Source: Zunongwangia sp. HGR-M22
GTDB taxonomy: Bacteria; Bacteroidota; Bacteroidia; Flavobacteriales; Flavobacteriaceae
Direction of reading: 5' to 3'
Length of the DNA: 64,000 bases
Assembly (NCBI RefSeq): GCF_027594425.1
Contig: NZ_CP115159.1
Coordinates: 3,309,001-3,373,000, forward strand
The position numbers and the translations under genes are program-made. The notes beneath the pieces are model-generated. The model made no database searches. It was not told where the DNA came from and worked only from the letters and a program-made list of their open reading frames with translations. Numbering within the stretch: position 1 is the first letter of the stretch; every line of letters begins with the position of its first letter. Below, in pieces: positions 35,927 through 54,352 of this stretch.

Positions 35927-35963
35927 TGTCCTTTTTTTAACATTGGATTAACTCCTATATTTG
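35927..35963 (+). promoter_or_regulatory. Phage late promoter 1 (TGTCC-T7 box, TATATTTG)
   Basis: The box TGTCCTTTTTTT starts at 35927 and a perfect -7 box TATATTTG starts 29 nt later at 35956. The first ATG downstream (35982) is +55 from the box. No TTTG -33 element is present at normal spacing. Confidence 0.7.
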
Positions 35964-35981
35964 GGAAAAGATCCTACATCT

Positions 35982-36500
35982 ATGTCCCAAAATTACTCTC
36001 AGTATTCCATCGTTCAAAAAATCCCGGTTGCCGATCATGTCTATAAGTACCTGCTAAAATTGTGTGGTAGCGATCATATAATAGCGGGTCGAAACACTTA
36101 CATTGGTAGTCTAGTCCTGTCCCTTCAAGGCCGCAATTATGATGTTCGCTTAACTCGACACAAATACACTAAAATCTTTAGAGTAGAGATCACGGAAACC
36201 TATTACGACAAAAATGGCCTTTTTATCACTCGTGAAAATGCCGAGCTCTTTAATGATCAAATAGACAAAAAGTTTAGAGACGAGCTTTATCGAATGATGC
36301 TTATGAATCGACACCTGGAGGAAAAGTTATTTTTAAAATCAATGCGTGCGTATTTGGAGTTCTATGATATTACAGAAGATGATATTAAAGCAGAGAGCCT
36401 TTACCGTGATTTTAAACGCAAAAAAGATGATCTTTTAGCCAATTTTAGCCTCAATACACCTGCCGGGACTAAATGTGAAGTTTCACAAATTGTCCCTTAA
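35982..36500 (+). CDS. First late-region phage protein, unknown
   Basis: About 172 aa from the ATG at 35982 (MSQNYSQYSIVQK); a TTG at 35961 lies within the promoter and is rejected. An alpha/beta N-terminal half (VLSLQGRNYDVRLTRHKYTKIFRVEITETYYDK) is followed by a helical, charged C-terminus. It opens the late transcription unit. No domain was recognised; structural or regulatory roles are both possible. Confidence 0.55.
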   Translation: MSQNYSQYSIVQKIPVADHVYKYLLKLCGSDHIIAGRNTYIGSLVLSLQGRNYDVRLTRHKYTKIFRVEITETYYDKNGLFITRENAELFNDQIDKKFRDELYRMMLMNRHLEEKLFLKSMRAYLEFYDITEDDIKAESLYRDFKRKKDDLLANFSLNTPAGTKCEVSQIVP

Positions 36501-36513
36501 TTTTTTCTCTCCA

Positions 36514-37056
36514 ATGATCCACAATCTTTGCAACATTTACGGCGACGAGAATTTCGATACTTTCTATAAAGCAATGATTATTGAAGCTTCACAGCTGCCA
36601 AAATTCAACCATCTTACTAAAGAACAGGAAGTTTTAACGCTTATCAATAATTTACCTCAGGAATTCCAGGCAATGACCATTGGTTTTTTACCGGAGCGCT
36701 TTAGCCTTGGTAACAGAACTAGAATAAGAAACGGTAGTCGAATGTATGAAACCGATTTTTCACTTCCCTTGGTTCCACAAGATGCGAATATTCAAAACTT
36801 GCTGGAGACTTATAATAATAAAGAGGTAGTGGTTTTAATTACCAGGCACACTCACTCCCATTTGTACGGTACCAGCGAACAGCCGCTTTTATTTACCTAC
36901 GAGGAACTTCATAATCCCGCACCTTCAGGACTTAAAGGTTATACATTAAATATGAATAATGAAAGCTATGGAGCTCCGCTATACTTTGCAGGAAATGAAG
37001 CAGAATTTCCCATTATTAACCGTGGCCTGGCTTTCCAATTAGCCGGAAGCCTGTAA
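36514..37056 (+). CDS. Hypothetical late phage protein
   Basis: About 180 aa from the ATG at 36514 (MIHNLCNIYGDENF), 13 nt after the preceding stop; an upstream in-frame ATG at 36475 overlaps the previous gene. Helical N-terminus, then a beta-rich half (VVVLITRHTHSHLYGTSEQPLLFTYEELHN). No family was recognised. It ends one base before the next late promoter. Confidence 0.55.
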   Translation: MIHNLCNIYGDENFDTFYKAMIIEASQLPKFNHLTKEQEVLTLINNLPQEFQAMTIGFLPERFSLGNRTRIRNGSRMYETDFSLPLVPQDANIQNLLETYNNKEVVVLITRHTHSHLYGTSEQPLLFTYEELHNPAPSGLKGYTLNMNNESYGAPLYFAGNEAEFPIINRGLAFQLAGSL

Positions 37057-37092
37057 TGTCCTTTTTTACAGGCTAGTGACGATCTAATATTG
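37057..37092 (+). promoter_or_regulatory. Phage late promoter 2, overlapping a hairpin
   Basis: TGTCCTTTTTT begins at 37057, directly after the stop codon of the preceding gene, with TAATATTG at 37085 (28 nt). The box lies in the loop of a perfect 9-bp inverted repeat AGCCTGTAA/TTACAGGCT, so a terminator-like hairpin and promoter overlap here. It drives the protease-capsid operon. Confidence 0.65.
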
Positions 37093-37127
37093 TTCTTCCA
37101 TAATAGTACGGATTAACAATCAACGAT

Positions 37128-38273
37128 TTGCCACAACCAAAGCCTTATTACAACATTGTAAAGAACGAAGCCGCCAAAGAAGCGACCATTTATATCTATG
37201 GTGCAATTGGCGGTATCGATTGGGATACTTACGAAACGATAAACACCGCTTCTAAATTCACACAAGAATTTAACGATTTGGAGAAAGATGCGGACACCAT
37301 CCACATAAGAATCAATTCTCCCGGCGGAGCAGTATTTGAAGGTCAGGCAATTTACAATGCAATCTTCTCTTCTAATAAAAAGATCATTACTTATAATGAT
37401 GGGATTTGCGCCAGTATGGCTGCACTTATACTTCTTTCCGGAGACAAAATCCACGCCTTTAAAAATTCCCTCTTAATGATTCATAACTCCAGTTCTTCTT
37501 ACTGGGGAAATAAAAAAGAGGTTGAAGAACAACTTGAAGCTGCAGAAAAAATCGACAAGGCATTAGGAACGGCAATCGAAGATCGCCTAGGCATTACGGC
37601 AGAAGAAGTTGAAAAAGACTATCTGAACTATAAAGACAATTGGTTTACAACTGATGAAGCTGAAGAGCTTGGATTTTATGATCATATTATTAAAAAAGAA
37701 AAAGCCCAGGTTCCTGAAGATATCATGCAATTGAAACCTAAGGATATGGTAAGCAAGTATGCTGCCATGACCTTCACTATTCCCGAAACAAAATCTAAAA
37801 TCACAAATACCATGAGCAAACCAAACTCGTTCCCGAATTTGGTAGCTGTACTTGGCGCAACCTTAGCGACTACAGATAAAGGCAGCTATATCAATGACGA
37901 ACAAAAGGAGGCTATCGATAATAGAATCGCTGCCGATGCCTTAGCCATCCAGACTGCAAATGCTGCAAAAGAAAAGGCAGAACAGGATTTACAGGCAGAA
38001 AAAGACTCCAGACAACAGGCAATCGATGCCGAAAAAGCGAACACAACCGCTGCTTTAACAGCAATGAGAACAGCTGCAACCGATGCAGGAGTAGAAAACA
38101 TCGCTGAAAATGCAACGATGGAAGACATCAACACAGCACTTACTGCACAAATCGCTGTGTTAAACGGTAAACCAGGTGCTTCGCATACAAGTGGAGCTGC
38201 TGAAGATAAAAACACCGAAGGAGAACATAACTATATAAATTTTGAATCTTCAATCTATAAAGACCTACAATAA
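37128..38273 (+). CDS. ClpP-like head maturation protease with scaffold-like C-terminus
   Basis: A 381-aa protein. Residues 1-210 form a ClpP/S14-type serine protease. The nucleophile Ser96 lies in GICASMAALIL, His119 in LLMIHNSSS, and Asp143 in EKIDKALG is the likely third residue. PGGAVFEGQAIYNAI is the substrate-loop block. Residues about 255-345 are an Ala/Glu/Lys-rich coiled coil, as in scaffold fusions that are cut away during capsid maturation. The start is a TTG at 37128. It overlaps the capsid gene by one base. Confidence 0.88.
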   Translation: MPQPKPYYNIVKNEAAKEATIYIYGAIGGIDWDTYETINTASKFTQEFNDLEKDADTIHIRINSPGGAVFEGQAIYNAIFSSNKKIITYNDGICASMAALILLSGDKIHAFKNSLLMIHNSSSSYWGNKKEVEEQLEAAEKIDKALGTAIEDRLGITAEEVEKDYLNYKDNWFTTDEAEELGFYDHIIKKEKAQVPEDIMQLKPKDMVSKYAAMTFTIPETKSKITNTMSKPNSFPNLVAVLGATLATTDKGSYINDEQKEAIDNRIAADALAIQTANAAKEKAEQDLQAEKDSRQQAIDAEKANTTAALTAMRTAATDAGVENIAENATMEDINTALTAQIAVLNGKPGASHTSGAAEDKNTEGEHNYINFESSIYKDLQ

Positions 38274-39304
38274 TGGGAGACCAAACAATGCAAATAGACG
38301 ATGTCGTTAAGGAATTAAAATCATTTCTTAAAAATAATCCAACACTTGTTTCAGCAGCGATAAACCGTGCTGAAATCGTATTGGATAAACACACTAAACC
38401 TTTAACGAAGATTAAAGGTAAATATCCACAAGCTCACACCTTGCTTACTGATGTAGTTCAAGGTTTTGGTACTGAATGGAACGAACTTGGTGCACTTAGA
38501 ATTAAACATAAAATTCTTAAGAATTATCATCAAAAAGTAAACTTCGCAATCATTCCTGCGGAAATTCTACACTCTTATTGGGCCGAACTTTATGCTGAAA
38601 ATAAGAAGCCACAGGATATGCCTATCTCTAAATATATCGTGGAGAATGAGCTATTGCCAAAGGTTCTGGATAACATGGCAACTTTATCTGTTAAAGGTAA
38701 ATTTGATCCAGCCAGACTTGACGAATTCGGCTACTCTATGGTAGGGATCGAAGAACTATTAAGTGTTATGCACGCTGCAGTTGTAGATCCTGAAATGAAG
38801 AATCCTACTCCGTTTAAAATTCCAATGAACGTTCTTACAGATTCTAACATGGTCGATCAAGTTACTGCATACGAGCGCCAGATACCATCGAAGATTAAAG
38901 GCAAAATTAAAAAAGTCTTTATGTCTGAGAATAATGTGGAGCGATACATTTTGGATTACGAAGAAAGATTTGGCCAAAACAAGTTTCAAAACAATGTTTT
39001 GAAAACCCGATTAGGTAAGCGCGAAATTGTTGCAATTCCAGGAATGGAAACGGATGATATATTCTCTACTACAGAAAATAATTTCAGAAGACTGATAGAC
39101 GTATTTGATGCACCTTCAATCACCGACGTACAGAAGCAGGATTATAAAGTAAAAATCTTTATGGAGTTCTGGAAAGGTTACGATTTCTTAATTGAAGAAT
39201 TAGTGCTGTTATCCAACTATACAGATGCCACTTATGGTCTTGGATCTACAGAGAAAAACAAGTTATACTACGGTATTGATGGTGTAACTCCTCCTGCAGA
39301 ATAA
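38273..39304 (+). CDS. Major capsid protein (probable)
   Basis: A 343-aa protein immediately after the protease-scaffold gene, the standard position of the HK97-fold capsid protein. The N-terminal helical part (VVKELKSFLKNNPTLVSAAINRAEIVLDKHTKPLTKIKGKYPQ) is followed by an alpha/beta body with an extended-loop-like basic segment. Its size is right. No direct family motif is recognised, so the call rests on position and size. An ATG at 38285 would shorten it by four residues. Confidence 0.7.
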   Translation: MGDQTMQIDDVVKELKSFLKNNPTLVSAAINRAEIVLDKHTKPLTKIKGKYPQAHTLLTDVVQGFGTEWNELGALRIKHKILKNYHQKVNFAIIPAEILHSYWAELYAENKKPQDMPISKYIVENELLPKVLDNMATLSVKGKFDPARLDEFGYSMVGIEELLSVMHAAVVDPEMKNPTPFKIPMNVLTDSNMVDQVTAYERQIPSKIKGKIKKVFMSENNVERYILDYEERFGQNKFQNNVLKTRLGKREIVAIPGMETDDIFSTTENNFRRLIDVFDAPSITDVQKQDYKVKIFMEFWKGYDFLIEELVLLSNYTDATYGLGSTEKNKLYYGIDGVTPPAE

Positions 39305-39314
39305 AACCTAAATC

Positions 39315-39689
39315 ATGAACAAAACAGAACTTAAGGCAAGGTGCAAGGAACTCGGTATTTCTACCGAGGGCCTTGATACCAATGCCAAATTAGAAGCAGC
39401 CATTCAAGCCAAAGAGGCTGAGCTTGCGAAAGTCGAAAAGGAGCAACCGGAAACTTCTGAGGAGCAACCGGAAATTTCTGAAGAGGAACTGGAAGAAAAA
39501 GGTGAAGATCCTGCACCCGATCATTATAAAGATGATCGCGGAAGAAAATGGAAGTTCAAAGCGAACACCCCTAAGAAATTAAGAATCGATGGACACCCAA
39601 TGAGCCAGGAAGAAATTCTGGGAACAGAAGAAGTAATTGCTGAGCTTGTTCTTGGGAATTGTTCATTCCTAACCCAAATAATCGAATAA
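39315..39689 (+). CDS. HeH/LEM-like N-terminal phage protein
   Basis: A 124-aa protein. The N-terminus (MNKTELKARCKELGISTEGLDTNAKLEAAIQAKEAELA) is a short helix-extended-helix/SAP-like motif seen near capsid genes. An acidic repeat linker contains the duplicated EKEQPETSEEQPEISEEE, followed by a small beta domain. The family is often a head accessory protein in Bacteroidetes phages; that role is inferred. Confidence 0.6.
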   Translation: MNKTELKARCKELGISTEGLDTNAKLEAAIQAKEAELAKVEKEQPETSEEQPEISEEELEEKGEDPAPDHYKDDRGRKWKFKANTPKKLRIDGHPMSQEEILGTEEVIAELVLGNCSFLTQIIE

Positions 39690-39690
39690 G

Positions 39691-40266
39691 ATGGAATGCG
39701 ATCCAATAAAATTAGAAAACATAGAGTTTTGCGCAACCGATGAAATCGTTGCCGGTCTTAATGATCTAGAAGTTTATGGAGCTGCTATCACCGACTTCGA
39801 AACCATTGCTAAGCCGCCAAAATTAAGCGTGGCCACAAGTTTTGAAGAGGCTGGAACTATAGCTGAAGCTCATACTTTTAAAGAAGGCCGTGGTTTCCAT
39901 AAAATTCAGATCCAGGCAGACTCAGGTAGTGTAGAAAATACGCAATTAGGAGAAAAATCTAATCTTGGTGTACAAAACTCCTTAACCGGAGCGATGCGAA
40001 ACAATAAAAAGACAAAAGGCTATCTTCGATATTATAAAAATACACCGATGATTTTTATAGTTAGAGAGAAAACTGGCAATCTTGTACAGGTTGGAAGTGA
40101 AAACTGCCCTGCCTATATTGTTGAGTTTACCGGAAATACCGGTGCTGCTCCTGGAGATGCCAAGAATATTCAGGTAATTATTCGAGATCAGCAGCCATAT
40201 TTTGCCCCTGATTATGAAGGAGCAATCACTAAATTCCCTGCACCGGCTCCAGATCCTGAAGTATAA
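39691..40266 (+). CDS. Putative tail tube protein
   Basis: A 191-aa beta-rich protein (FHKIQIQADSGSVENTQLGEKSNLGVQNSLTGAMRNNKKTKGYLRYYKNTPMIFIVREKTGNLVQVGSENCPAYIVEFTGNTG) that ends in a proline-rich tail. The size and beta-sandwich pattern fit siphovirus tail tube proteins. It lies one base after the previous gene. The call is inference from pattern and context. Confidence 0.5.
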   Translation: MECDPIKLENIEFCATDEIVAGLNDLEVYGAAITDFETIAKPPKLSVATSFEEAGTIAEAHTFKEGRGFHKIQIQADSGSVENTQLGEKSNLGVQNSLTGAMRNNKKTKGYLRYYKNTPMIFIVREKTGNLVQVGSENCPAYIVEFTGNTGAAPGDAKNIQVIIRDQQPYFAPDYEGAITKFPAPAPDPEV

Positions 40267-40589
40267 TGAGTAAGGCATTTAAAATAGCACCCGGCCGTTA
40301 CGTGATCCCAAACGTTGGAAGTGTAGATGCTCAAAAAGAAGTTAGCGATAATGTACTTTTTGAAATCTATAAACTTCCTCGCCGGGTCTTTCCCTGGATC
40401 CAACTTGGTACCGATGCTGAAGCCTACCTGAAAAAACAAAAGCTCCACGTTAAGGATTTTGCGAAGCTTGTTAATAATGCCCGGACTAAAAATGAGATTG
40501 AACTTTTGGCCAGGATAAGCGATACCAAAACAATCGATCGTATTGCTGAAACCAAATTGAAAGCTTTAGAAAATTCAATTAAAAATTAA
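40266..40589 (+). CDS. Small hypothetical structural-operon protein
   Basis: A 107-aa protein: beta N-terminus (APGRYVIPNVGSVDAQKEVSDNVLFEIYKLPRRVFPWI), helical C-terminus. It overlaps the previous stop by one base and is the last gene of its unit before a strong terminator. Possibly a head-tail connector or tail assembly protein; nothing specific is seen. Confidence 0.55.
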   Translation: MSKAFKIAPGRYVIPNVGSVDAQKEVSDNVLFEIYKLPRRVFPWIQLGTDAEAYLKKQKLHVKDFAKLVNNARTKNEIELLARISDTKTIDRIAETKLKALENSIKN

Positions 40590-40617
40590 ATCTGTATTCT
40601 TCATTTTAATTTAGTTA

Positions 40618-40653
40618 GTAAAAACCGCCAGTGCAATTCCTGGCGGTTTTTTT
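40618..40653 (+). terminator. Intrinsic terminator ending the capsid operon
   Basis: AAAACCGCCAG pairs with CTGGCGGTTTT across an 8-nt loop and is followed by seven Ts. It lies immediately before late promoter 3, which separates two transcription units. Confidence 0.9.
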
Positions 40654-40655
40654 AT

Positions 40656-40691
40656 TGTCCTTTTTAATGACTTGTGCCATCTGCAATTTTG
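40656..40691 (+). promoter_or_regulatory. Phage late promoter 3 (leaderless class)
   Basis: TGTCCTTTTT at 40656, CAATTTTG at 40684 (28 nt). The ATG at 40696 follows the -7 box by 4 nt (+40 from the box), so the transcript would start at or near the ATG. The flank TTTTGGATCATGG is shared almost exactly with promoters 5 and 8. Confidence 0.75.
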
Positions 40692-40695
40692 GATC

Positions 40696-41451
40696 ATGGA
40701 AATAAGTGAATGGTTACAAAGCAAGCCTAAGGTTTATAACACCGGAGTAGATCTTTACGCAGCCTCCAGCGTAATGCAATCAAGAACCCTGGCGAATTTA
40801 AAACGTGGAGAGAATCCGCGAAATATGGCCGTGCTAATTAAAGAGCTTCGGCAATTATCAAAATCCAGAGCTTACCAAAAGCCTAAACCAAAACCGGTGG
40901 TAAAAATAGAAGTTGTTGCAGATCCTAAACCGGTACAGGTAGAAATGGAACGCAAAAACCAAATCGAGCAAAGTGCTAATGCCTATTTCCAGAAAATAAA
41001 ATACAACGAATTACCTGCAGTCTTAAAAGTACGATATCGCCAATTAAAGGATCTCTTTTACGATATGAGCGACTTAAAGTTTGTTTTGAATGACTTGCCT
41101 GCCAAGGAAGTCAATAAGGCTTTAAAAATCATACTAAAGATCGAAGCACTCGACGAGCAAAGAGAAATGATCTGGAGAGAACTGGATCACTGGCAAGATC
41201 ATAAAACCTTACTTCCTACAAAAACAGAAAACGATTTTACTGGGTTATCGCAGCAAGAGCTCTTCCTAAAAAAAGCGAATCTGGTTAACTACATCAATAA
41301 AAAAACTTCGAGAATAAAAAAGTGGGAAAGCGAGATGCAGAAAAAAAGCAATAAGGATGAGCGCTTAAAAATTGGCCAGCAAATTAACCGAACTCAAAAA
41401 GCAGTGCACCAACACAAACTCGACCTGCAGAAAATCGAAGGGATGTTATAG
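40696..41451 (+). CDS. Coiled-coil phage structural or assembly protein
   Basis: About 251 aa from the ATG at 40696 (MEISEWLQSKPKVYNTG); the longer frame starts within the promoter. The N-terminal 60 residues look like a small folded domain. Residues about 80-251 are a long charged coiled coil (KKTSRIKKWESEMQKKSNKDERLKIGQQINRTQKAVHQHKLDLQKIEGML). It is a single-gene unit with its own late promoter. Function unknown. Confidence 0.6.
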   Translation: MEISEWLQSKPKVYNTGVDLYAASSVMQSRTLANLKRGENPRNMAVLIKELRQLSKSRAYQKPKPKPVVKIEVVADPKPVQVEMERKNQIEQSANAYFQKIKYNELPAVLKVRYRQLKDLFYDMSDLKFVLNDLPAKEVNKALKIILKIEALDEQREMIWRELDHWQDHKTLLPTKTENDFTGLSQQELFLKKANLVNYINKKTSRIKKWESEMQKKSNKDERLKIGQQINRTQKAVHQHKLDLQKIEGML

Positions 41452-41475
41452 AGTCCCCCAGCTTACTAACAATCT

Positions 41476-41570
41476 CTCACAACCATTAATAATTAACCCA
41501 ATCAGGCACTGGAGGACATAAGCCCTTCAATATCTGATTGGGAATATTTAATAATTATAATGATTGTGAG
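41476..41570. repeat. Nested inverted repeats upstream of the DNA methylase
   Basis: An outer imperfect inverted repeat (CTCACAACCATTAATAATTA at 41476-41495 against 41552-41570) encloses a perfect 9-bp one (CCCAATCAG at 41497-41505 with CTGATTGGG at 41534-41542), and a small GGAGG/CCTTC stem inside. The right outer arm overlaps the first possible start codon of the methylase. It may fold as a leader RNA or cruciform, or be an autoregulatory site. Confidence 0.6.
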
Positions 41571-41571
41571 A

Positions 41572-42426: not shown

Positions 42427-42427
42427 T

Positions 42428-42462
42428 TAAAAAAACAGCGGCTAAATAGCCGCTGTTTTTCT
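42428..42462. terminator. Bidirectional intrinsic terminator
   Basis: AAAACAGCGGCTA pairs with TAGCCGCTGTTTT with a 2-nt loop, flanked by A- and T-runs. It ends the methylase gene and the convergent small gene, whose stop codon lies inside the hairpin. Confidence 0.9.
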
Positions 42463-42744
42463 TTCCAGGAAATAAAATAAATCAGTGTACTCTTCGCGAA
42501 TCACTTCTCCATCCTTAGTTATTTCTGGATAGGTATGTAAGAACGTTTTAAATCCAAGCTCTAAAAGAATATCTCTTATATCGCTTTCGTAGATCCATCG
42601 TTCCGGAAGAACATTTGTCACTAATTTATAGATATTAGAAAGCGTTTTTCTTTCCACATAATCTCCTCCTGTAAATTGAGAATCTACAGGCATATAATTA
42701 TCTTGAATTAGTTTTTTAATCTCATTTGTATAGTCAGTTTTCAT
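42442..42744 (-). CDS. Small phage moron protein with its own host-type promoter
   Basis: A 100-aa soluble protein (MKTDYTNEIKKLIQDNYMPVDSQFTGGDYVERKTLSNIYKLVTNVLPERWIYESDIRDILLELGFKTF) with no recognised domain. A canonical promoter lies directly upstream on the minus strand, with the ATG 5 nt after the -7 box, so it can be expressed in the lysogen independently of late genes. It sits between the methylase and terminase, convergent with the former. Confidence 0.6.
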   Translation of the reverse strand: MKTDYTNEIKKLIQDNYMPVDSQFTGGDYVERKTLSNIYKLVTNVLPERWIYESDIRDILLELGFKTFLHTYPEITKDGEVIREEYTDLFYFLERKTAAI

Positions 42745-42749
42745 TTTCT

Positions 42750-42782
42750 CAAAAATAAAAAGTTACATTTTTAATTATCAAA
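42750..42782 (-). promoter_or_regulatory. Canonical Bacteroidetes promoter for the moron gene
   Basis: Read on the minus strand: TTTG (42782-42779), 21 nt, TATTTTTG (42757-42750). This is the consensus -33/-7 pair, unlike the late promoters in the same region. Confidence 0.7.
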
Positions 42783-42903: not shown

Positions 42904-44406
42904 CTAGAACGTGGTGAGTGGCATATCTTCTGCTCCGGCTCTCGAGGCATCTAGTTTACCCTCGAACATTGAGAAGAATGGATAATCAAAAGTATCCGAT
43001 AAGTGTGTTGCGTGCTCCTGGTCCACCCCCTTTCTTCTCTCCGATCGCTTATCCTTTTCCAGTCCTTTCCCTCGATCATAGACTTCTGCATTTTCCATTG
43101 AAACAATTAAGTTAGGGCAGTTGGCCTGATTGATCCGTATCTTGGGTAATCCTCTGCGCCTGCCATCTTCTCGGAGGGCCACGTTAATCAGTCTAAACTT
43201 TTCAGTGTATGATGGATTCGCACCGGTTGTCATTTTATAAACAGTCCACCCTGCTTTGGTTAGTATATCCTTTGCCTGATCTGCCATAGTCATTTTACTA
43301 TTGGCCATCCTATTATTACCGGTTCTATCATAATAGAAGTATACTTCTTTAGTTGGGTGTGGCAAGTAGTAAGGTAGAAACTCCTCCAGGAATAAATGAT
43401 CCAACATCTTTGGCGACTTTACATAGAACTCCTTAAGCACTCTATAAGTGTCCCCCTGTAATTGGCTAACAGTCATACTATTTATATTGGCTCCCCAATC
43501 CACACTTATAATCAGTGGTTCATTCTTCTTGACGTCAAGATCCTGACGACAGTTTAGAGCATTGCCATTTAAATCAGTAATAGGTATTCCTTCTAGATAA
43601 CCGTTATCAAAATCAGTATAGTAGTGATCCGCGGTAAGTTGCGGGTAAAATCCGTCCGTAATTTCTCTAGGTCGGATATTAAGCATTTCAGCATTATAGA
43701 TAATATCATCCCTATAAGACTGGCGCATATACTCAAAATAGTCCGCTCTCAGGTTAGCCATATTTACTCTGGCTGTAGCTTTAAGAAATAATATTTTTGA
43801 GGGATCCTTTCTCGCTGCATCTTCCATTTCTGTAAACCATCTCCCTTTTTTGGTTAAAGGAGTAGAAGAAGTAAAAACCTCGGAGTGCAAAAGCGGCGCA
43901 TTTTTAAATTGTGCTTTTTTGGCTCTGTTGGTGTTTTTTACGTTAATTGCTAACTTCTCATCATCAAATAGCGCAGCTTCATCTCCTCGTATAGCGTAAG
44001 AGTTTAGACCACGCCCGCTATCCTTATGATCTAAGCTGACAAATTGAAAAATTGATCCATTCGACCAATGCCAGATATTATTAAATGCTTCAGGTGATTG
44101 ATAGGGCATTTTAAAGCCCATCTTTTTTCCTGCCATCGAACCAACTACATAATCTACGCCTTCATAAACTCCGAATAATTCCAGACCTTCTTTAATAGCC
44201 GGCATAAATCTGGAGAGAATTTGACTATAGGTAGATCCTACCATTGCAAATGATGCTCTAGGCATTTGTTTAACCAGCTGAAGAGAGTCATAACCCAGGT
44301 AAGTTGTTTTTCCAGATCCCCTACCCCACTCTAAATATTTTTGTTTTTGTTTGGCGGTAGCAGCAACAACCTGGGCGGCATTTAAACGAACTTTTTTACT
44401 CAGCAT
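42904..44406 (-). CDS. Terminase large subunit
   Basis: A 500-aa DNA packaging ATPase and nuclease. Walker A is GRGSGKT at residues 28-34; the Walker B region is SYAIRGDEAALF. The RNase H-like nuclease domain has its metal-binding Asp in IISVDWGAN, a second acidic site in YFYYDRTGN, and the last in HATHLSDTFDYPFF. It overlaps the small subunit gene by 11 nt. The pair runs opposite to the neighbouring capsid and portal genes, which is an unusual gene order. Confidence 0.93.
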   Translation of the reverse strand: MLSKKVRLNAAQVVAATAKQKQKYLEWGRGSGKTTYLGYDSLQLVKQMPRASFAMVGSTYSQILSRFMPAIKEGLELFGVYEGVDYVVGSMAGKKMGFKMPYQSPEAFNNIWHWSNGSIFQFVSLDHKDSGRGLNSYAIRGDEAALFDDEKLAINVKNTNRAKKAQFKNAPLLHSEVFTSSTPLTKKGRWFTEMEDAARKDPSKILFLKATARVNMANLRADYFEYMRQSYRDDIIYNAEMLNIRPREITDGFYPQLTADHYYTDFDNGYLEGIPITDLNGNALNCRQDLDVKKNEPLIISVDWGANINSMTVSQLQGDTYRVLKEFYVKSPKMLDHLFLEEFLPYYLPHPTKEVYFYYDRTGNNRMANSKMTMADQAKDILTKAGWTVYKMTTGANPSYTEKFRLINVALREDGRRRGLPKIRINQANCPNLIVSMENAEVYDRGKGLEKDKRSERRKGVDQEHATHLSDTFDYPFFSMFEGKLDASRAGAEDMPLTTF

Positions 44407-44956
44407 TTTCCTCGTCGTTTAGCTCTTCGAATTCCGTATCCTCGACACCAAAATTGTTGAAATCAACTACCCCTTCAGAGGTCATTTTTTCGATACCTTT
44501 CCTACTTCGACTATCCAGAGTGATAGTGATATCCATATTTTTAAGCTTATCAAGATTAACAAGCTTATCATCCTTGTCGAAATCCGCCAGTTTGATCATA
44601 CGATCAAGACATTTCCCTATTTCAGTTAAGTTCTTCTCCTTAAAAGCAATCTCTAGGGCCTGCTGATTATATTCGAAAATCAAGAAGCGCATTCCTTCCT
44701 TGTCCGCTTTTCCTACATCGCCATAGATCTTTAATGCATTACCAATATCACGATAGGCAGTTGCCTGAGAAACCTCGAATTGTTCTTGAAGGATTTTAGA
44801 AACTTGGTCACGGGTTTTACGATCAAGCATTAGTGTAAAGGCCGTTTTTACACGATTTTTCATTTTTTCCTGAAAATCGCTGAGTTCTATAGAATCATCT
44901 AGAAAGGATCCGTAAACCTTATCGAAGTGAGTGTCTTTTGTGGTTATGTTCGCCAA
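44396..44956 (-). CDS. Terminase small subunit (probable)
   Basis: A 186-aa helical protein directly upstream of TerL. The central HTH-like segment (VSKILQEQFEVSQATAYRDIGNALKIYGD) fits DNA recognition of the packaging site, and the acidic tail (EDTEFEELNDEENAE) is typical. It is transcribed from the minus-strand member of a back-to-back late promoter pair, with the ATG at +55 from its box. Confidence 0.75.
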   Translation of the reverse strand: MANITTKDTHFDKVYGSFLDDSIELSDFQEKMKNRVKTAFTLMLDRKTRDQVSKILQEQFEVSQATAYRDIGNALKIYGDVGKADKEGMRFLIFEYNQQALEIAFKEKNLTEIGKCLDRMIKLADFDKDDKLVNLDKLKNMDITITLDSRSRKGIEKMTSEGVVDFNNFGVEDTEFEELNDEENAE

Positions 44957-44975: not shown

Positions 44976-45011
44976 CAAAATTGACCTATCGAAGCCCCTT
45001 AAAAAAGGACA
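44976..45011 (-). promoter_or_regulatory. Phage late promoter 4, for the terminase genes
   Basis: On the minus strand TGTCCTTTTTT starts at 45011 and CAATTTTG starts 28 nt later at 44983. The terminase ATG (44956) is at +55. It lies back-to-back with promoter 5; only 9 nt separate the two boxes, which form an 11-bp inverted repeat. Confidence 0.78.
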
Positions 45012-45020
45012 CTTAATTCC

Positions 45021-45056
45021 TGTCCTTTTTTAAGGCACAAGTCATTCGCACTTTTG
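45021..45056 (+). promoter_or_regulatory. Phage late promoter 5, for the portal operon
   Basis: TGTCCTTTTTT at 45021, CACTTTTG at 45049 (28 nt), ATG at 45061 (+40). The short 4-nt gap predicts a leaderless transcript. Confidence 0.78.
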
Positions 45057-45060
45057 GATT

Positions 45061-45414
45061 ATGGCAGAAGAAACGATCTATCTAAAAGAAGTCCTGGAGA
45101 TTATGCGAACTCCGAATTCCGAAGGAAAAGCGGTGAAATTCGATATTTCCGTGCGCACTTTTAATCGAAATTCCAAAACCGGTGGCACATTAAATAGCTA
45201 CGAAAATGCAAAACTGGTGATGAAGGAAAAAGGAATGGATAAGGATAGTATTTACGCCTTACAGCATTTCAAAAAAACCAAAACCCCGAAGATTAGAAAG
45301 AACCCACAGCACTTCGAAAATAAGACTCGAAATATTCGCCTGGAGAACGGCGAGGTTAAGAAAATCCACATTCGCTACATCATTTCATTCAACGGCAAAA
45401 AAGTCATTTATTAA
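45061..45414 (+). CDS. Hypothetical protein ahead of the portal gene
   Basis: A 117-aa basic beta-rich protein (FDISVRTFNRNSKTGGTLNSYENAKLVMKEKGMDKDSIYALQHFKKTKTPKIRKNPQHFENKTRNIRLENGEVKKIHIRYI). It overlaps the portal gene by one base (TAATG). Probably a small head-assembly protein; no family was recognised. Confidence 0.6.
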   Translation: MAEETIYLKEVLEIMRTPNSEGKAVKFDISVRTFNRNSKTGGTLNSYENAKLVMKEKGMDKDSIYALQHFKKTKTPKIRKNPQHFENKTRNIRLENGEVKKIHIRYIISFNGKKVIY

Positions 45415-46751: not shown

Positions 46752-46753
46752 TT

Positions 46754-47689: not shown

Positions 47690-47691
47690 TT

Positions 47692-48912: not shown

Positions 48913-48918
48913 AAAGTT

Positions 48919-50007
48919 ATGGGATTAAGAAGAACGGTTTTTGGTGAAAATTATTATTCATCACCATATAAAATCAATGACCTTCGAGCATCTGAAATTT
49001 ATGGTGTAGCAATTCGATTAAATTTTACAATTCCTGAAGGAAACTTTGAAAAGTTCAATGTTTATGTAAATGATGCATTATATGATGAAATTTATTATTC
49101 AGGAGATACAATTGTATTGATGGATCCATTGACTACTTATGATATTAGAATTACCCCAGTTGGTGTAGTACAAGGAGAACTTGATAAATCAAATCGTATT
49201 ATAGTAACAACTTTAGAAAATAATTATTCTCAAAGCTATCATCCAAGATATGAGGAGCGTTTGGATTATGCGATCGCTCACAAAATACAGATACCTAACG
49301 AATCACAAAGATCTATAGATAATCAAAGGGTAACCGAGCTAGTAAATGAAGGATTATTAGATGAATTTGACTTCTTATACTATTTCAAAAATAATTATCC
49401 AAACATAAAGGCAACAAGTTGTTTTTACACTCTTAATTGGGTTGATCCTACGAAATATCGCTTAAACAATCCAGATAAATTAAAAGAGCCAAGATATTAT
49501 ACAAATCAAGGTTATAAAGCAACTGCAGAAGAAAGGGAGTTTTTTCAAAATGGTTTTGTACCAAACATTGATGCTAATAAATTTTTAGTTGATGATTACT
49601 GTTTAATCTACAAAACATTTGATTTTGAAATATCTTCAAGTTTTACAAATATTCATGTCTTTGGAAATTATGAAAGTAGTAGTAACAATTTAATGGTATC
49701 TAGATCAAGTGGGAACTTGACAGTTTTAGAGAGTGTCCCATCTATAGATAGATTTGATTTAAATGAAATGTTTTTTGTTTTTGGAGATCAAAATGGTAAG
49801 AGAATTTATATGAATAATGTTCTTGAATATAGCGGATCTAGATTAGATTTTTCTAACGGAGACCATGAAATTCTACCTTTAGGTGTTTACGCTACTAATG
49901 TAAATGTAAAAATCGGACCAAATGGGAATTTAGGTTGGGAATTAGTAGGAATTGGTAAAAATTTAGAAAATAAAAGAACTGAACTTTACAATATATTTAA
50001 TTCATAA
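48919..50007 (+). CDS. Putative tail fibre/adhesin
   Basis: A 362-aa protein with a fibronectin-like N-terminal part (GVAIRLNFTIPEGNFEKFNVYVNDALYDEIYYSGDTIVLMDPLTTYDIRITPVGV, residues about 30-90). The C-terminal half resembles a lectin/LamG-like jelly roll (residues about 220-355). It probably binds host surface glycans. Codon use is AT-richer than that of its neighbours, which fits exchangeable host-range modules. Confidence 0.6.
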   Translation: MGLRRTVFGENYYSSPYKINDLRASEIYGVAIRLNFTIPEGNFEKFNVYVNDALYDEIYYSGDTIVLMDPLTTYDIRITPVGVVQGELDKSNRIIVTTLENNYSQSYHPRYEERLDYAIAHKIQIPNESQRSIDNQRVTELVNEGLLDEFDFLYYFKNNYPNIKATSCFYTLNWVDPTKYRLNNPDKLKEPRYYTNQGYKATAEEREFFQNGFVPNIDANKFLVDDYCLIYKTFDFEISSSFTNIHVFGNYESSSNNLMVSRSSGNLTVLESVPSIDRFDLNEMFFVFGDQNGKRIYMNNVLEYSGSRLDFSNGDHEILPLGVYATNVNVKIGPNGNLGWELVGIGKNLENKRTELYNIFNS

Positions 50008-50009
50008 TT

Positions 50010-50420
50010 ATGATAGTTAGAAGTAAAAAACCTTTAATAATTGATTCGAGGTCAGGAACAAAATCTGTAATCGCTTTACAGATTACAGGATGGACGAAAG
50101 AATGCAAAAATAATCGCTACAAAGCAGAAGTTTCAGATTGCACTGTATCCAATATTGAAAGACCTATGGCTGGAGACCCTTTAAAATCATATAAACAATT
50201 CAATTCAAAAACAGTATACTATTCCAATGATGAGATAGATGCTCTTTTTTCACAAATAGGAGAAAGTATCACACCTGAAATGAGTTACTCCGAAAAGCAA
50301 TCTGAAATTATAGCAAAAGCCCTTCTTAGTATCACTCAAAAAACCCCGATCTATGGTAGTTCTAGTGAAGACTGGGAACTTGTCGATGAAACCTCAGAAA
50401 TCCAACTTTCCGAAACATAA
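50010..50420 (+). CDS. Hypothetical late protein downstream of fibre genes
   Basis: A 136-aa protein: a beta-rich N-terminal half (VIALQITGWTKECKNNRYKAEVSDCTVSN) and a helical end. It begins 2 nt after the adhesin gene and ends the operon. It may be a fibre chaperone or attached fibre part. Not recognised. Confidence 0.55.
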   Translation: MIVRSKKPLIIDSRSGTKSVIALQITGWTKECKNNRYKAEVSDCTVSNIERPMAGDPLKSYKQFNSKTVYYSNDEIDALFSQIGESITPEMSYSEKQSEIIAKALLSITQKTPIYGSSSEDWELVDETSEIQLSET

Positions 50421-50426
50421 CCCTCC

Positions 50427-50462
50427 TGTCCTTTTTTTAAAATCATTGGGTTAAGACTTTTA
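50427..50462 (+). promoter_or_regulatory. Phage late promoter 6 (weaker -7 box)
   Basis: TGTCCTTTTTTT starts at 50427. At 28 nt the sequence is GACTTTTA, a two-mismatch -7 box. The ATG at 50482 is at +55, as for promoters 1 and 4. Confidence 0.5.
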
Positions 50463-50481
50463 CATTATAAATCTGAACCCA

Positions 50482-50994
50482 ATGAATCTCTCAAATTTTA
50501 AATCTTGGTTTTCTGAGTTCTTCAGTAATATTGGCCAATTACTTCTTTCATTTTTTTTAATCCTCGTAGCATTCGCGCTTTTTATTCCCTGCTTGATTGC
50601 TTCCATTATTTGGAAAGTAGTGGTTTCTATTTCAAAAGAAAATCGAAAAGCTCGAGATATTATCTCAGGAACCAAGCAATTTTTTTTAGCGATCGCAATT
50701 GCCCTCGATCAACTTGGTAATGTAGCCTTTGGTGGTTTCTTTAATTGGTTGTTTCTAAAAGACCAGGAAGGATTGTACAATTTCGGTGCAGCCCACGAAA
50801 CCATAAGTGAAGTTTTAGGATGGAATCTTTATCTCGAGCATTTAAACCAAAAAGGAAAATATATGGTTGCGCTTCTCGATTGGATCGAAAAAGATCATTG
50901 TATCAAAGCGATGAGATCCGGCATCGAAACGGCACAATTCAAAACTGATCATTGGCAGGATGTTCAGGAATATCAAGTAAACTCAAAACTTTAA
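50482..50994 (+). CDS. Membrane protein of the lysis operon
   Basis: A 170-aa protein. One strong transmembrane region spans residues about 18-48 (LLLSFFLILVAFALFIPCLIASIIWKVVVSI), and a second weaker one lies near residues 66-88. The soluble C-terminal part (AAHETISEVLGWNLYLEHLNQKGKYMVALLDWIEKDHC) is helical. The first gene of the lysis unit; it might modify holin timing. Not recognised. Confidence 0.55.
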   Translation: MNLSNFKSWFSEFFSNIGQLLLSFFLILVAFALFIPCLIASIIWKVVVSISKENRKARDIISGTKQFFLAIAIALDQLGNVAFGGFFNWLFLKDQEGLYNFGAAHETISEVLGWNLYLEHLNQKGKYMVALLDWIEKDHCIKAMRSGIETAQFKTDHWQDVQEYQVNSKL

Positions 50995-50996
50995 TA

Positions 50997-51398
50997 ATGA
51001 AAACAATTCTTACACTGTTGACTGGGTTCTTCCTAATCACTACCAACATCTTTGCGCAAAAATCAAAAAAAGAACCAATTAAAGATTCGGTCACTATTAG
51101 CATTCCGGCTACCGTGGTTTTAAACCACGAAGGTAAAATGCTAATCACCGATCGATATAATAAAAGACATTTTGAAATCGAATCGACCAGGGAAATTTCC
51201 CAGGGAAAAGAATATGAATTTATTCTTCAATTTAAAATTTCCGATCGTCAAAAATATCATTGTATCGGCTGCACCGGAATTCTGCCTGCAACTTTAATCG
51301 ATTTTACGATTACTCCTTATCAGGCTAAACTCGACCAGGCTAGAATTAGGGATGCTTTGCGAAATAAGGGCTATGATAAAAGCCCACGGTATCAATAA
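50997..51398 (+). CDS. Secreted hypothetical phage protein
   Basis: 133 aa from the ATG at 50997, two bases after the previous stop; a longer frame starting in the previous gene is rejected. Signal peptide MKTILTLLTGFFLITTNIFAQ, then a beta-rich body with a Cys pair in YHCIGCTGILP that may form a disulfide or metal site. Its place between two lysis-operon genes suggests action in the periplasm. Confidence 0.6.
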   Translation: MKTILTLLTGFFLITTNIFAQKSKKEPIKDSVTISIPATVVLNHEGKMLITDRYNKRHFEIESTREISQGKEYEFILQFKISDRQKYHCIGCTGILPATLIDFTITPYQAKLDQARIRDALRNKGYDKSPRYQ

Positions 51399-51411
51399 AT
51401 AAGTAATATAT

Positions 51412-51771
51412 ATGCTAGCTCTTCAAACTGAGTCACTTTCCAAATTTTCAGAATATGGTTTACCAGGCCTCGTTATTCTCACACTTATAATAGCGGTAGG
51501 ATATCTCTTTAAAGTAGTTCACGACTACAGTAAACAAGATCGTAAAAGAGCTGATCATTTTGGTGATGCTTTTATGAAAATATCTAGTGATCAAAATGAA
51601 ACTAATCGAAAAATTGTTGAAGTCACAGAAAAAATGGCCGATCAAAACAAAGTGTATCACGAAGATACCACTCGGCGTTTAGAGGAAATGCCTTCCAAAA
51701 TTCTAAAAGAATTTGAGTATCGCCAATTACAGCAAGCTCAAAACAACGCTCATACCACCCCTGCCCCATGA
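51412..51771 (+). CDS. Holin-like protein
   Basis: A 119-aa protein with one N-terminal transmembrane helix (residues about 15-34, EYGLPGLVILTLIIAVGYLFKVV) and a charged coiled-coil tail. It overlaps the endolysin gene by 4 nt (ATGA). That position, size and topology fit single-span holins of the BhlA type that open the inner membrane. Confidence 0.65.
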   Translation: MLALQTESLSKFSEYGLPGLVILTLIIAVGYLFKVVHDYSKQDRKRADHFGDAFMKISSDQNETNRKIVEVTEKMADQNKVYHEDTTRRLEEMPSKILKEFEYRQLQQAQNNAHTTPAP

Positions 51772-52424
51772 CTTTAACACCGCTTCAGATTTTTCAAAAA
51801 GATCATTGTTTAGATCCGGATGGTGTTTTTGGTCCTAAGACAATTAATGCTATGAGAATAGCTTTTCAATTGACTATTAAGCAAACCGCAAACTTTGCGG
51901 GGCAATGCGCGCATGAATCTAATTATTTTAAGCGCCAGTTTGAAAACCTGAATTATTCTTATGAACGATTACTACAGATTTTCTCATACGATCTTGATAC
52001 TGATCGAAATGGTATTCTTTCTGAAGCTGAAAAACAAGTGGCCAGGATCCTGGCAAGAAAACCGGAGCAAATTGCAAACTTTGTTTATGCCAACCAAAAT
52101 GGAAATGGTGATGAAGCTTCCGGTGATGGTTGGTTATTTCGTGGTCGTGGGCCATTACAATTAACCGGTAGAAGAAATTACCAATTATTCGCTGATGCAA
52201 TGAACGATCAGGAAATAATGTGCAATCCGGATCTTGTGGTTACTAAATACTATTTTGAGAGTGCATTATGGTATTTCGATAATAATCATTTGTGGAACGT
52301 GGCTAAGAAAACAGATCTCACCTCGATTAAGCAACTAACAAAGCGAATCAATGGAGGATATCATGGTTTAGATGATCGTATTGAAAAAACTAAAAAATTC
52401 GAAAGATGGTTAATCGCTGCTTAA
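51768..52424 (+). CDS. GH19 endolysin with peptidoglycan-binding start and EF-hand loop
   Basis: A 218-aa peptidoglycan hydrolase. Residues about 3-32 match a short PG-binding motif (LQIFQKDHCLDPDGVFGPKTINAM). The GH19 catalytic residues are Glu50 in CAHESNYFK and Glu116 in NGNGDEASGDGWLFRGRG, followed by LQLTGRRNY. Residues 77-88 (DTDRNGILSEAE) form a complete 12-position EF-hand calcium loop inserted in the variable region between the catalytic blocks. There is no signal peptide, so export needs the holin. It overlaps holin and spanin genes. Confidence 0.9.
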   Translation: MTLTPLQIFQKDHCLDPDGVFGPKTINAMRIAFQLTIKQTANFAGQCAHESNYFKRQFENLNYSYERLLQIFSYDLDTDRNGILSEAEKQVARILARKPEQIANFVYANQNGNGDEASGDGWLFRGRGPLQLTGRRNYQLFADAMNDQEIMCNPDLVVTKYYFESALWYFDNNHLWNVAKKTDLTSIKQLTKRINGGYHGLDDRIEKTKKFERWLIAA

Positions 52425-52894
52425 TAATCGTTTTTATATTCTTCCTAGTTAGCTGCAGCTCCAGAAAAGTCGGGACCCACAAAAAGCAGGAATCGGTCTC
52501 TGAACTTCAGCAAAACGATATCAAAACTTTCGAGAATGAGACAATCAAAAGCGATATCCTGCGAATATCTGAAAAATGGGATCTTAACTTCAACCCCAGG
52601 GATCCAGCCAAGCCTATGGACATTATCCACGGCCAAGATACACTTAGCACCACTAACGCCGATGTTACGATCAGCAAAGAAAACACCAGAGAGCAGGATA
52701 ATTCGGTTAGAGAATCTAATCGCGAATCCAGTGATCAATCAAAGAGCAAAAAAGAAAAAGACGTCTACGAAAAAGGAAAAATAACCGATCGACAGTCCTC
52801 AAGTTGGGGATTAAATATTGGGCTTATTTTCGGCATTATAGTGGCTATTATATTGATATTTCTACACTTTAAAACAAAGTCTCCCAAAACCTGA
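52406..52894 (+). CDS. Putative unimolecular spanin (u-spanin)
   Basis: A 162-aa protein starting within the endolysin gene (19-nt overlap). The N-terminus is a lipoprotein signal (CLIIVFIFFLVSC, lipid on Cys17). The middle is hydrophilic and disordered-looking. Residues about 133-155 form a C-terminal transmembrane helix (WGLNIGLIFGIIVAIILIFLHF). A lipid anchor in the outer membrane plus an inner-membrane anchor in one chain is the topology of u-spanins such as T1 gp11, which fuse the two membranes as the last lysis step. Confidence 0.78.
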   Translation: MVNRCLIIVFIFFLVSCSSRKVGTHKKQESVSELQQNDIKTFENETIKSDILRISEKWDLNFNPRDPAKPMDIIHGQDTLSTTNADVTISKENTREQDNSVRESNRESSDQSKSKKEKDVYEKGKITDRQSSSWGLNIGLIFGIIVAIILIFLHFKTKSPKT

Positions 52895-52917
52895 TTTTTT
52901 CTTAATACCTATGCTTT

Positions 52918-52948
52918 GAAAGGACAGCTATTTTGCTGTCCTTTTTTT
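52918..52948 (+). terminator. Intrinsic terminator of the lysis operon
   Basis: AAAGGACAGC pairs with GCTGTCCTTT across the loop TATTTT and is followed by a T-run. The right arm is itself a TGTCC-T7 box, so terminator and promoter element coincide here. Confidence 0.85.
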
Positions 52949-52972
52949 ATGGTCTCCGGCTAACGTATTTAG
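52937..52972 (+). promoter_or_regulatory. Possible phage late promoter 7 (no clear -7 box)
   Basis: TGTCCTTTTTTT at 52937 is part of a terminator arm. At the usual distance (52965) there is only GTATTTAG, a poor -7 match, and the ATG at 52987 is +50. It could be a true late promoter in a changed form or only the terminator. Confidence 0.35.
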
Positions 52973-52986
52973 CCAAAAATATAAGC

Positions 52987-53829
52987 ATGGGGATCAACTT
53001 ATCATTAACGGTAAAGCTTCCAAAATCATGGAACGAACTAAGCGAAAAGCAGCTGGGAAAAATTGCGGTGGCCATAGAGCATTTTAGAAAATTCTATGAG
53101 CTTTATCCTAAAGAATCAAACACAGCAATTAACAGGCTTTACTCAAGGATCTGTAAGATCTTGCTTAGCTCCAATAATTTCCTGGTTCAATATATAGCCC
53201 TGGTTCAAATTCCTCCGGAAGAATATGCTGATCATGTTGCATTTATAAATAAAGAAAACACCAGGACAGTTTTCCCTCAAGCTTTTAGGATTAGAGGTAA
53301 AAAACATTTCCCTCCAGCGAATAGGATCCAAAACCTATCGATGGAAGAATTCAGCTTTGTCGATGCACTTTTTTTCAACTGGAGATTAAAAAACGATGCT
53401 CGATATCTCGATTTAATTTGTGCTACACTTTATCGTGGTTCAGGGTCTCAAAATCTGGATTATGATATAAGACGGCCTTTTAACAAAGTTATCCTAGAGA
53501 AATCAATCAAAAAATGGATAAAAGTTGCGCCGGAAAAGAAGCTGGCCATTGCTTATACTTTTGAAGGTTGCCGCAATGAAATGGTTAAACTATATCCTAA
53601 TGTTTTCCCGAAACCACCAAAGGAAACGAAGAAAATCAAAATTCAGCAAAAACCACAATACACGCCTTTCGGCCAGCTATTAAACTTCAAAATAAATTTT
53701 GACCCTTCTAAGCTCGAGCAAACCGAACGCATAAACATGCACAAGTTTTTGAGCACCTACGAGAATGAATTAATAAACGAGAAAAAGACTAAAAAGAATG
53801 CCGGAACTAACCCACAAAATCGTCGTTGA
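52987..53829 (+). CDS. Hypothetical phage tail-region protein
   Basis: About 280 aa from the ATG at 52987 (MGINLSLTVKLPKSWNELSEKQLGKI); the longer frame starts upstream in the promoter/terminator region. Helical N-terminus; the end is lysine-rich (TKKIKIQQKPQYTPFG... NEKKTKKNAGTNPQNRR). It overlaps the next gene by 32 nt. Probably a tail assembly protein ahead of the tape measure. Confidence 0.55.
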   Translation: MGINLSLTVKLPKSWNELSEKQLGKIAVAIEHFRKFYELYPKESNTAINRLYSRICKILLSSNNFLVQYIALVQIPPEEYADHVAFINKENTRTVFPQAFRIRGKKHFPPANRIQNLSMEEFSFVDALFFNWRLKNDARYLDLICATLYRGSGSQNLDYDIRRPFNKVILEKSIKKWIKVAPEKKLAIAYTFEGCRNEMVKLYPNVFPKPPKETKKIKIQQKPQYTPFGQLLNFKINFDPSKLEQTERINMHKFLSTYENELINEKKTKKNAGTNPQNRR

Positions 53830-54307
53830 TTTTTTTGAAAATATTAATCAGCAATTAAAAGACTTTCCGGAAAAATCATTTTTCCGAATGGATCTGGATG
53901 AACTCTTTGGTGCTTTTAGATCGGGGATTAATTTTCCGGCCATGAGTGTAGAATCTCCGGAAGGCGATGGATCTAAATCACTTCCCGAAAATAGTATGAT
54001 AGGTCGATTCTTTGCGTTCACGATCTGGCAAAGGCCACAACATGGTAACTTCGACCAACAAAACGAAATGCTCGATGAATGTGAGCGCATTGGTATAAAG
54101 ATACTTGCTCGTATGCGATTTGAATCGAAGAAGCCCGATTCTATTCTTTACAACAAATTCAAAGTTTCGAGTGTAAGCTGGAAACAATATGGCCCCGTAT
54201 TTAATGAGAAGCTTTACGGTTACAGATTTGAAGGCGCTTTCGAGGGTAATGAATCTTTAAAATTAGATCCTGATGATTGGAATGATATAGCTACCAATTG
54301 TCCATAA
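53798..54307 (+). CDS. Putative tail terminator/minor tail protein
   Basis: A 169-aa alpha/beta protein. The N-terminal helix (IVVDFFENINQQLKDFPEKSFFRMDLDELFGAFR) precedes beta strands, and the end is acidic (LKLDPDDWNDIATNCP). It lies three genes before the end of the tail cluster and just before a late promoter. The layout resembles tail completion proteins; this is inference. Confidence 0.45.
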   Translation: MPELTHKIVVDFFENINQQLKDFPEKSFFRMDLDELFGAFRSGINFPAMSVESPEGDGSKSLPENSMIGRFFAFTIWQRPQHGNFDQQNEMLDECERIGIKILARMRFESKKPDSILYNKFKVSSVSWKQYGPVFNEKLYGYRFEGAFEGNESLKLDPDDWNDIATNCP

Positions 54308-54312
54308 TTGTC

Positions 54313-54348
54313 TGTCCTTTTTTAAGGGTTTTATAGCTGCCAATTTTG
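54313..54348 (+). promoter_or_regulatory. Phage late promoter 8 (leaderless class), tail operon
   Basis: TGTCCTTTTTT at 54313, CAATTTTG at 54341 (28 nt), ATG at 54353 (+40), with flank TTTTGAATTATGG. It is nearly identical in layout to promoters 3 and 5. Confidence 0.78.
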
Positions 54349-54352
54349 AATT

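Follow-up and report, generated by a model that had tools for sequence, protein, structure and literature searches.

In phage Mu, several late units each carry a box for an activator (Mor or C) beside a weak promoter, and the activator gene lies between the early and the late genes. Bacteroidota are a dominant phylum in both gut and sea; of how their phages switch on the late genes we found no description in the open-access literature. The -7 element of the phylum's own promoters is described as TAHHTTTG with transcription starting 4-5 nt downstream, and in the promoters of Flavobacterium johnsoniae in general the -33 motif is hardly visible (PMC6847099). Here we analyse a window of 64,000 nt (bases 3309001-3373000 of the one-contig, 4.04 Mb genome of Zunongwangia sp. 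HGR-M22), in which a prophage carries repeated TGTCC-T boxes before its virion genes, and we propose that these boxes would be the upstream halves of a family of phage late promoters. A first-pass annotation of the window knew of no described late promoter of this form in Bacteroidetes phages; we likewise found none in the open-access literature, and among the matches listed by a literal search for TGTCCTTTTT, all were unrelated by title.

The prophage occupies, by our estimate, ~22-63.8 kb of the window, or ~1% of the genome, and has an integrase gene (62448-63758) that adjoins tRNA-Leu. Its virion genes, which include those for a ClpP-like head maturation protease, terminase, endolysin and tape measure, match those of Polaribacter phage Leef_1 (Helgolandviridae), with identities of 59% for the terminase, 59% for the portal and 58% for the product of 38273-39304. 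We found no other cultured relative in two queries. The boxes stand where the first-pass annotation had placed them, starting at 35927, 37057, 40656, 45011 (minus strand), 45021, 50427, 52937 and 54313, and make up the following sites:

35927..35963, plus strand: box TGTCCTTTTTT with -7 element TATATTTG (35956-35963), before the candidate activator gene (ATG at 35982).
37057..37092, plus strand: box with -7-like element TAATATTG (37085-37092), before the gene for the ClpP-like head maturation protease (37128-38273).
40656..40698, plus strand: box with -7 element CAATTTTG (40684-40691); the ATG at 40696 is the predicted +1 (leaderless) of gene 40696-41451.
44976..45011, minus strand: box with -7 element CAATTTTG (44983-44976), before the small-terminase-like gene and terminase.
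45021..45063, plus strand: box with -7 element CACTTTTG (45049-45056); the ATG at 45061 is the predicted +1 (leaderless) of the unit of a 117-residue protein, portal and adaptor.
50427..50462, plus strand: box with -7-like element GACTTTTA (50455-50462), before 50482-50994 and the endolysin unit.
52937..52972, plus strand: box with a poor -7 element (GTATTTAG), before 52987-53829.
54313..54355, plus strand: box with -7 element CAATTTTG (54341-54348); the ATG at 54353 is the predicted +1 (leaderless) of the unit of a 155-residue protein and the tape measure.

The first-pass annotation had counted a -7-like element 28 or 29 nt after the box in seven of the eight, a number that holds only when near matches are included. 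In its strict form, [CT]ANNTTTG starts at +28 or +29 in five (35927, 40656, 45011 on the minus strand, 45021 and 54313), and near matches stand at +28 after 37057 and 50427. The sequence after 52937 does not fit the -7 element, although its counterparts in the related phages G301 (GAATTTAG) and G309 (CAAATTTG) do have the ANNTT core.

Within the window TGTCCTTTTT occurs 10 times, where 0.44 copies would be expected and none of 100 window shuffles gave more than 2; with the core added, TGTCCTTTTT-N19-ANNTT occurs 5 times against 0.02 expected (shuffle maximum 1). The whole genome holds six exact copies of the latter, five in the prophage and one outside. Shuffles, a kind of check that the first-pass annotation had called for, and the genome-wide count together rule out chance; equal frequency in host DNA, which the annotation had named as fatal to its proposal, is not what is seen. 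One extra copy of TGTCCTTTTT, at 13079, lies within the open reading frame 13010-15262, outside the prophage as placed and without an exact core in place. Another, at 26046 (TGTCCTTTTTTT), lies antisense within the open reading frame 26035-26532 with a core one mismatch off, and serves as an internal negative.

Among 397 genomes of the host family (a table read by eye, unsummed), TGTCCTWTT-N20-ANNTT is present in 375, and in most of those listed it stands about at or below the reversed-pattern control. Genomes above the control are G000, G030, G123 and G318, which hold such prophages, and also others, e.g. G217, G186 and G387. Read in this way, the table does not point to a general host regulon with promoters of box-plus-core form. 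That the box pattern is real, concentrated in phages and widely conserved is, in our judgement, close to certain.

Phages for comparison were gathered by terminase, then by a LuxR-like protein and then by a 172-residue protein, both introduced below. The placing of boxes before virion gene units, already proposed in the first-pass annotation, proved to be conserved over very distant phages. A box precedes many equivalent operon starts in relatives whose proteins are ~20-80% identical, and some starts have none: site 54313 is conserved in G301, G285 and G273, and is missing before the equivalent of 54353 in G309. The box at 35927 has counterparts in G309, G301 and L031 and is absent before 8 other orthologues examined, and a box of the 37057 type precedes the orthologue in G309, G285, G273, G301, L031, L033, L034, L035 and, at 11265, G030. 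TGTCCT boxes stand before 12 of 13 orthologues of 40696-41451, Leef_1 included (none was seen there in G285), and before 9 of 9 orthologues of the gene starting at 45061. Site 50427 is conserved in G309 and G301, the sole two orthologues found, and the divergent pair 45011/45021 in G309, G285, G273 and G301.

Two of these places have further structure. The divergent boxes form an inverted repeat at 45001-45031 (AAAAAAGGACA ... TGTCCTTTTTT), a paired arrangement also present in G309, G285, G273, G301, G755, G759, G784 and G787, and this repeat may double as a two-way terminator. The box at 52937 is the 3' arm of a hairpin (52922-52948; AAAGGACAGC...GCTGTCCTTT) followed by T, terminator-like and just 3' of gene 52406-52894.

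A survey of 30 contigs found boxes in 25, with 108 matches against 3 in the reversed control. For spacing we used 106 boxes (87 non-redundant) from 17 sources, selected by TGTCCTWT alone, and excluded 40 places from the 30-contig survey from the counts. Counted in bp from the box start, an ANNTT core follows at gap 29 in 57 of the 87 and at gap 30 in 16, nine having both, so that 64 have one or the other; elsewhere ANNTT averages 2.6 per position, the next highest count being 10 at gap 21. ATG stands at offset 40 in 23 of the 87 boxes, against a mean of 1.8 elsewhere. Among the 57 gap-29 sites, offset 40 is A in 47 and begins an ATG in 21, G is scarce at -10 and -9 (3 each), and the -12 base is C in 29 and T in 12. 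The resulting core consensus is CAHHTTKG, in which the alignment itself fixed A at -11 and TT at -8/-7 and left the other positions free. Setting the -7 element at -12 to -5 (PMC6847099) places the box TGTCCTWTTTT at -40 to -30 and the predicted +1 at offset 40.

Scarce G at -10 and -9 and the A at offset 40 agree with a TAHHTTTG element from which transcription begins 4-5 nt further on (PMC6847099), and the C at -12 departs from the host consensus, as would fit a promoter needing help. Given the ATG at offset 40 in 21 of 57 sites, about one third of the promoters would give leaderless mRNA, with transcripts of those units starting at the start codon; the window has this layout at 40656, 45021 and 54313. 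In F. psychrophilum, 5.5% of mRNAs are leaderless (PMC9723704). The -33 TTTG is missing, as the first-pass annotation had observed: the T run of the box occupies its place and no TTTG consensus is seen. As evidence this weighs less than that annotation assumed, because F. johnsoniae promoters in general hardly show such a motif (PMC6847099).

The same set of boxes bears on the proposal that the TGTCC-T runs belong to intrinsic terminators or are T runs that arose by chance. Some boxes do follow terminators or lie in GGACA/TGTCC hairpins, and among the 64 non-redundant cored sites AAGGACA occurs within 45 nt upstream in 8 and a six-T run within 14 nt upstream in 17. The other 56 have no AAGGACA arm, however, and a terminator leaves the fixed distance to ANNTT and ATG unexplained; the spacing contradicts the terminator and the chance reading alike, and we give this proposal next to no credence.

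An unguided motif search, which looked at regions upstream of genes, compared the 5-mers that precede ANNTT at gaps 18-33 and was not supplied with TGTCC, put TGTCC or GTCCT (gap 29 or 28) at the top in 5 of 12 phages (Leef_1, G123, G318, G705 and G514). For G761 and G762 it returned TGTAA or CTGTA, which are in register but scored modestly, and it gave nothing convincing in G764, G765, G766, G502 and G664. The near-copies G761 and G762 carry the box variant TGTMATTT at 5 sites each, against 0.4 and 0.3 in simulation; other words from a motif search over whole boxless contigs, such as ACCCTA in G761, were dropped once the upstream-of-gene search gave TGTAA. In G766, two TGTCC[CA]AA sites have a core that is closer by one base (0.08 in simulation), possibly a further variant of the box. 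The 80 kb taken from G502, whose host belongs to another family, contain 8 TGTCCTTTT sites; 4 are followed by a correct core, and one of these 4 has ATG at +40. Overall the boxes fall into two classes with T or A at the seventh base, TGTCCTTTT and TGTCCTATT.

We propose that the host sigma-A holoenzyme would read the degenerate -7 element, that a phage protein on TGTCCTWTTTT would stand in for the -33 contact, and that the virion units would stay silent until this box-binding protein is made. An activator-dependent late regulon using host sigma had been suggested in the first-pass annotation; concentration in phages, rigid spacing to a sigma-A-type -7 element, position before virion units and conservation all favour it, and the late timing and activation we infer, along with transcription start, binding and the identity of the reader. 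That a phage factor reads the promoter together with host sigma is, we think, probable. The box might alternatively be an operator by which a lysogenic repressor keeps the late units off without an activator, since its overlap with the -33 region could let a bound repressor keep polymerase away, and a repressor-like gene (phrog_8) lies at 26584-27051 on the minus strand. Both the fixed spacing of 29/30 bp and the degenerate -7 element fit an activator site better than an operator, and a one-sided, non-palindromic box is unusual for lysogenic repressors; we consider an operator improbable.

The phage factor postulated in the first-pass annotation can be narrowed, on sequence grounds, to a leading candidate that the annotation did not name. 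Four products of the window were considered as readers of the box:

35982..36500, plus strand: candidate late activator, 172 residues, first gene of the late cluster, without a database family.
27680..28297, plus strand: LuxR-like (GerE) helix-turn-helix regulator, 205 residues, in the early region (Pfam GerE, 5.7e-06).
44396..44956, minus strand: 186-residue protein directly before terminase, helix-turn-helix-like by a reading of the alignment, the second rival reader.
27208..27492, plus strand: small early protein of 94 residues, helix-turn-helix-like by a reading of the alignment, in 14 of 16 phages, a weak rival.

The gene for the 172-residue protein is present in 13 of the 16 phages compared, with a weak syntenic match in G502 (hhalign probability 5%, hmmsearch E 0.028) that may extend the link between this protein and the box. 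Selection by the LuxR-like protein gave 24 contigs; the gene is present in 21, 19 of these with TGTCCT boxes and 2 with TGTMATTT; the three without it (G764, G765 and G766) show neither TGTCCT nor TGTMATTT beyond chance. A search with the 172-residue protein gave 51 loci, 40 of them new, and 34 contigs were analysed, five loci on 4-9 kb contigs and L224 (15 kb) being left out. Although picked by this family alone, 30 of the 34 contain TGTCCTWT-N21-ANNTT (114 matches against 2 in the control), and a LuxR-like gene was detected in 18; several of these contigs are near-copies of each other, and all may be fragments.

The 300 nt upstream of the 172-residue frame contain no TGTCC box in 10 of 13 phages, so that the protein can be made ahead of the late units; a box does precede the gene in the window phage, G301 and G309. 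The reader would be made from a boxless promoter in most relatives, and the box added in the window phage and those closest to it could allow self-amplification. Among seven phages with TTTT boxes, the C-terminal helix is 79% identical and the whole protein 50%, the segment having been chosen after viewing the alignment. Column 136 of the family alignment, in the C-terminal helix, is D in 24 of 25 T-class rows and in 0 of 16 A-class rows, seven other columns also separate the classes, and G502 and G815 keep the T and lack the D.

The window protein has no family in Pfam, PHROGs or NCBIfam, the stray single-member matches reaching 0.0036 and 0.0058 at best; in the Pfam scan of 13 members no stray match involved more than two of them (best 0.0058), and Mor/C was not among the matches. 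In a viral structure library the one match with E < 0.001 was the Leef_1 homologue, Leef1_39 (E 2.8e-17).

Several observations weigh against this assignment or against the promoter family behind it. The predicted model of the 172-residue protein (predicted local distance difference test score, pLDDT, 81) has no recognisable DNA-binding fold and no PDB match above chance, the best on a second look being a cullin chain with Z 5.1 over 58 residues, which is in the chance range. No box is seen in four of the 34 gene-bearing contigs (G786, G795, G802 and G817), though G802 may hold the TGTMATTT variant, its gene matching as that of G762 does, and 23 of the 87 boxes lack a core at both gap 29 and gap 30. 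Because G764 is a near-copy of G765, the independent negative cases number two, which lowered our confidence in the explanation by this protein; G764 and G766 also lack most of the virion module, and many contigs are near-copies or fragments. The gene is itself part of the virion module, and co-occurrence alone therefore cannot single it out. Lastly, the switch between T and A boxes and the loss of D amount to about one event on the tree and are therefore not independent support; the tree left out G768, G770, G771, G772, G775, G777, G780 and G781, and 11 of 56 rows (near-duplicates, two unlabelled) were removed.

The LuxR-like regulator, our first choice at one time, is a genuine GerE-type helix-turn-helix protein: Pfam GerE matches 13 of 14 family members, NarL in the PDB matches at 1.6e-11, and the model has pLDDT 89, the Pfam and PDB profiles covering the helix-turn-helix and the structure alignments mainly 129-198, with the N-terminal part, where a quorum-sensing regulator would have its autoinducer-binding domain, barely covered. 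Its gene is in 16 of 16 phages compared (seven picked by it, nine not), including G502 with its weak 172-residue homologue, and LuxR-type proteins often act near the -35 region. It was set back by LuxR-like contigs without boxes (three, two of them near-copies) and by five contigs of 34-48 kb, possibly incomplete, that have boxes and no detectable LuxR-like gene (G788, G797, G804, G811 and G815). Its recognition helix also varies among phages with the same box (48% identical, against 42% for the whole protein, in seven phages). That it reads the same promoters seems to us unlikely. By eye, the recognition helix gave no clean pattern of covariation with box class, and a phage sigma factor was rejected, Sigma70_r4_2 being weakly touched in 2 of 14 LuxR-like members (best 0.019, against 2e-15 for GerE). 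Just 3' of the LuxR-like gene and before 28507, a one-mismatch box (CGTCCTTTTTT; 28454-28487) has correct core spacing; a similar site lies at L045:1013 (G273), and the same scan found none in G309, G301, G285, Leef_1 and G030.

The reader could also be another protein of the module, such as the product of 44396-44956, or two proteins acting jointly like MotA/AsiA of T4. This terminase-adjacent protein comes close to the 172-residue protein in how widely it occurs, its gene being found in 13 of 16 phages and in 29 of 34 contigs, which is a further point against singling out the latter. In the window, however, its gene sits with terminase behind a box promoter and would be made with the late genes, and its place before the terminase large subunit suggests that it is probably the small terminase; we rate this alternative as quite unlikely. 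In the related contigs G805:C1:24387-24962 and G806:C1:19041-19616 the gene has one in-frame TAG, which recoding, an intron or an error might explain. In the window the terminase unit (42904-44956) lies on the minus strand, opposite to the other late genes; in Leef_1 and G030 it shares their strand.

Weighing these points, we regard the 172-residue product of 35982-36500 as most likely the reader, ahead of the LuxR-like regulator, and we lean, by a little, towards the whole explanation with this protein as the phage factor.

Two further blocks of the prophage stand out. Its left end (22111-26028) holds five genes on the minus strand that have no Pfam match, are absent from the 15 other phages compared and are possibly an accessory or defence island. 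Between the early and late genes, a variable block (32309-35917), found in 0 of 15 other phages compared, includes a DUF5131 protein (33433-34170), a phrog_8999 protein (35186-35917) and others.

More broadly, and tentatively, the 172-residue family may be an undescribed class of phage activators that would redirect the divergent sigma-A of Bacteroidota by replacing its -33 contact at TGTCC-T boxes, and would run the late programme of a large group of Flavobacteriales phages, with many leaderless structural mRNAs in a phylum without Shine-Dalgarno signals. A conserved, computable promoter would let late units be marked in uncharacterised phages, and could yield an inducible promoter for a phylum in which tools are scarce. 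The finding points to one small protein that is present in a cultured phage, Leef_1, and is directly testable there.

Compared with described systems, the arrangement resembles that of Mu Mor/C in having several box-bearing late units and a candidate activator gene between early and late genes; unlike there, Pfam scans of the 172-residue and LuxR-like proteins gave no Mor/C match, and the box is non-palindromic. As in T4 middle promoters (sigma appropriation), a one-sided phage box would replace the -35 contact at fixed spacing while the host -10 type is kept; unlike there, the box is TGTCCTWTTTT centred at about -35, where the MotA box is (a/t)3TGCTTtA centred at -30 (PMC2988021), a consensus (TGCTT at -30) to which these boxes do not conform, and no known family includes the candidate protein. 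With Bacteroidota sigma-A promoters (TTTG / TAnnTTTG) the box promoters appear to share a -7 element, here in degenerate form, its distance to the predicted start and the avoidance of G at -10/-9, but here -12 is mostly C, not T, and the upstream half is the phage box. Leef_1 shares the virion genes, the LuxR-like protein, the homologue of the 172-residue protein and the boxes; the paper on that phage, whose main text does not contain the word 'promoter', reads the LuxR gene as quorum sensing (PMC8776804), a reading of this neighbouring gene that our analysis puts in question. In sequence, place and protein the box promoters differ from both the T4-middle and the Mu-late class, and we file them in neither.

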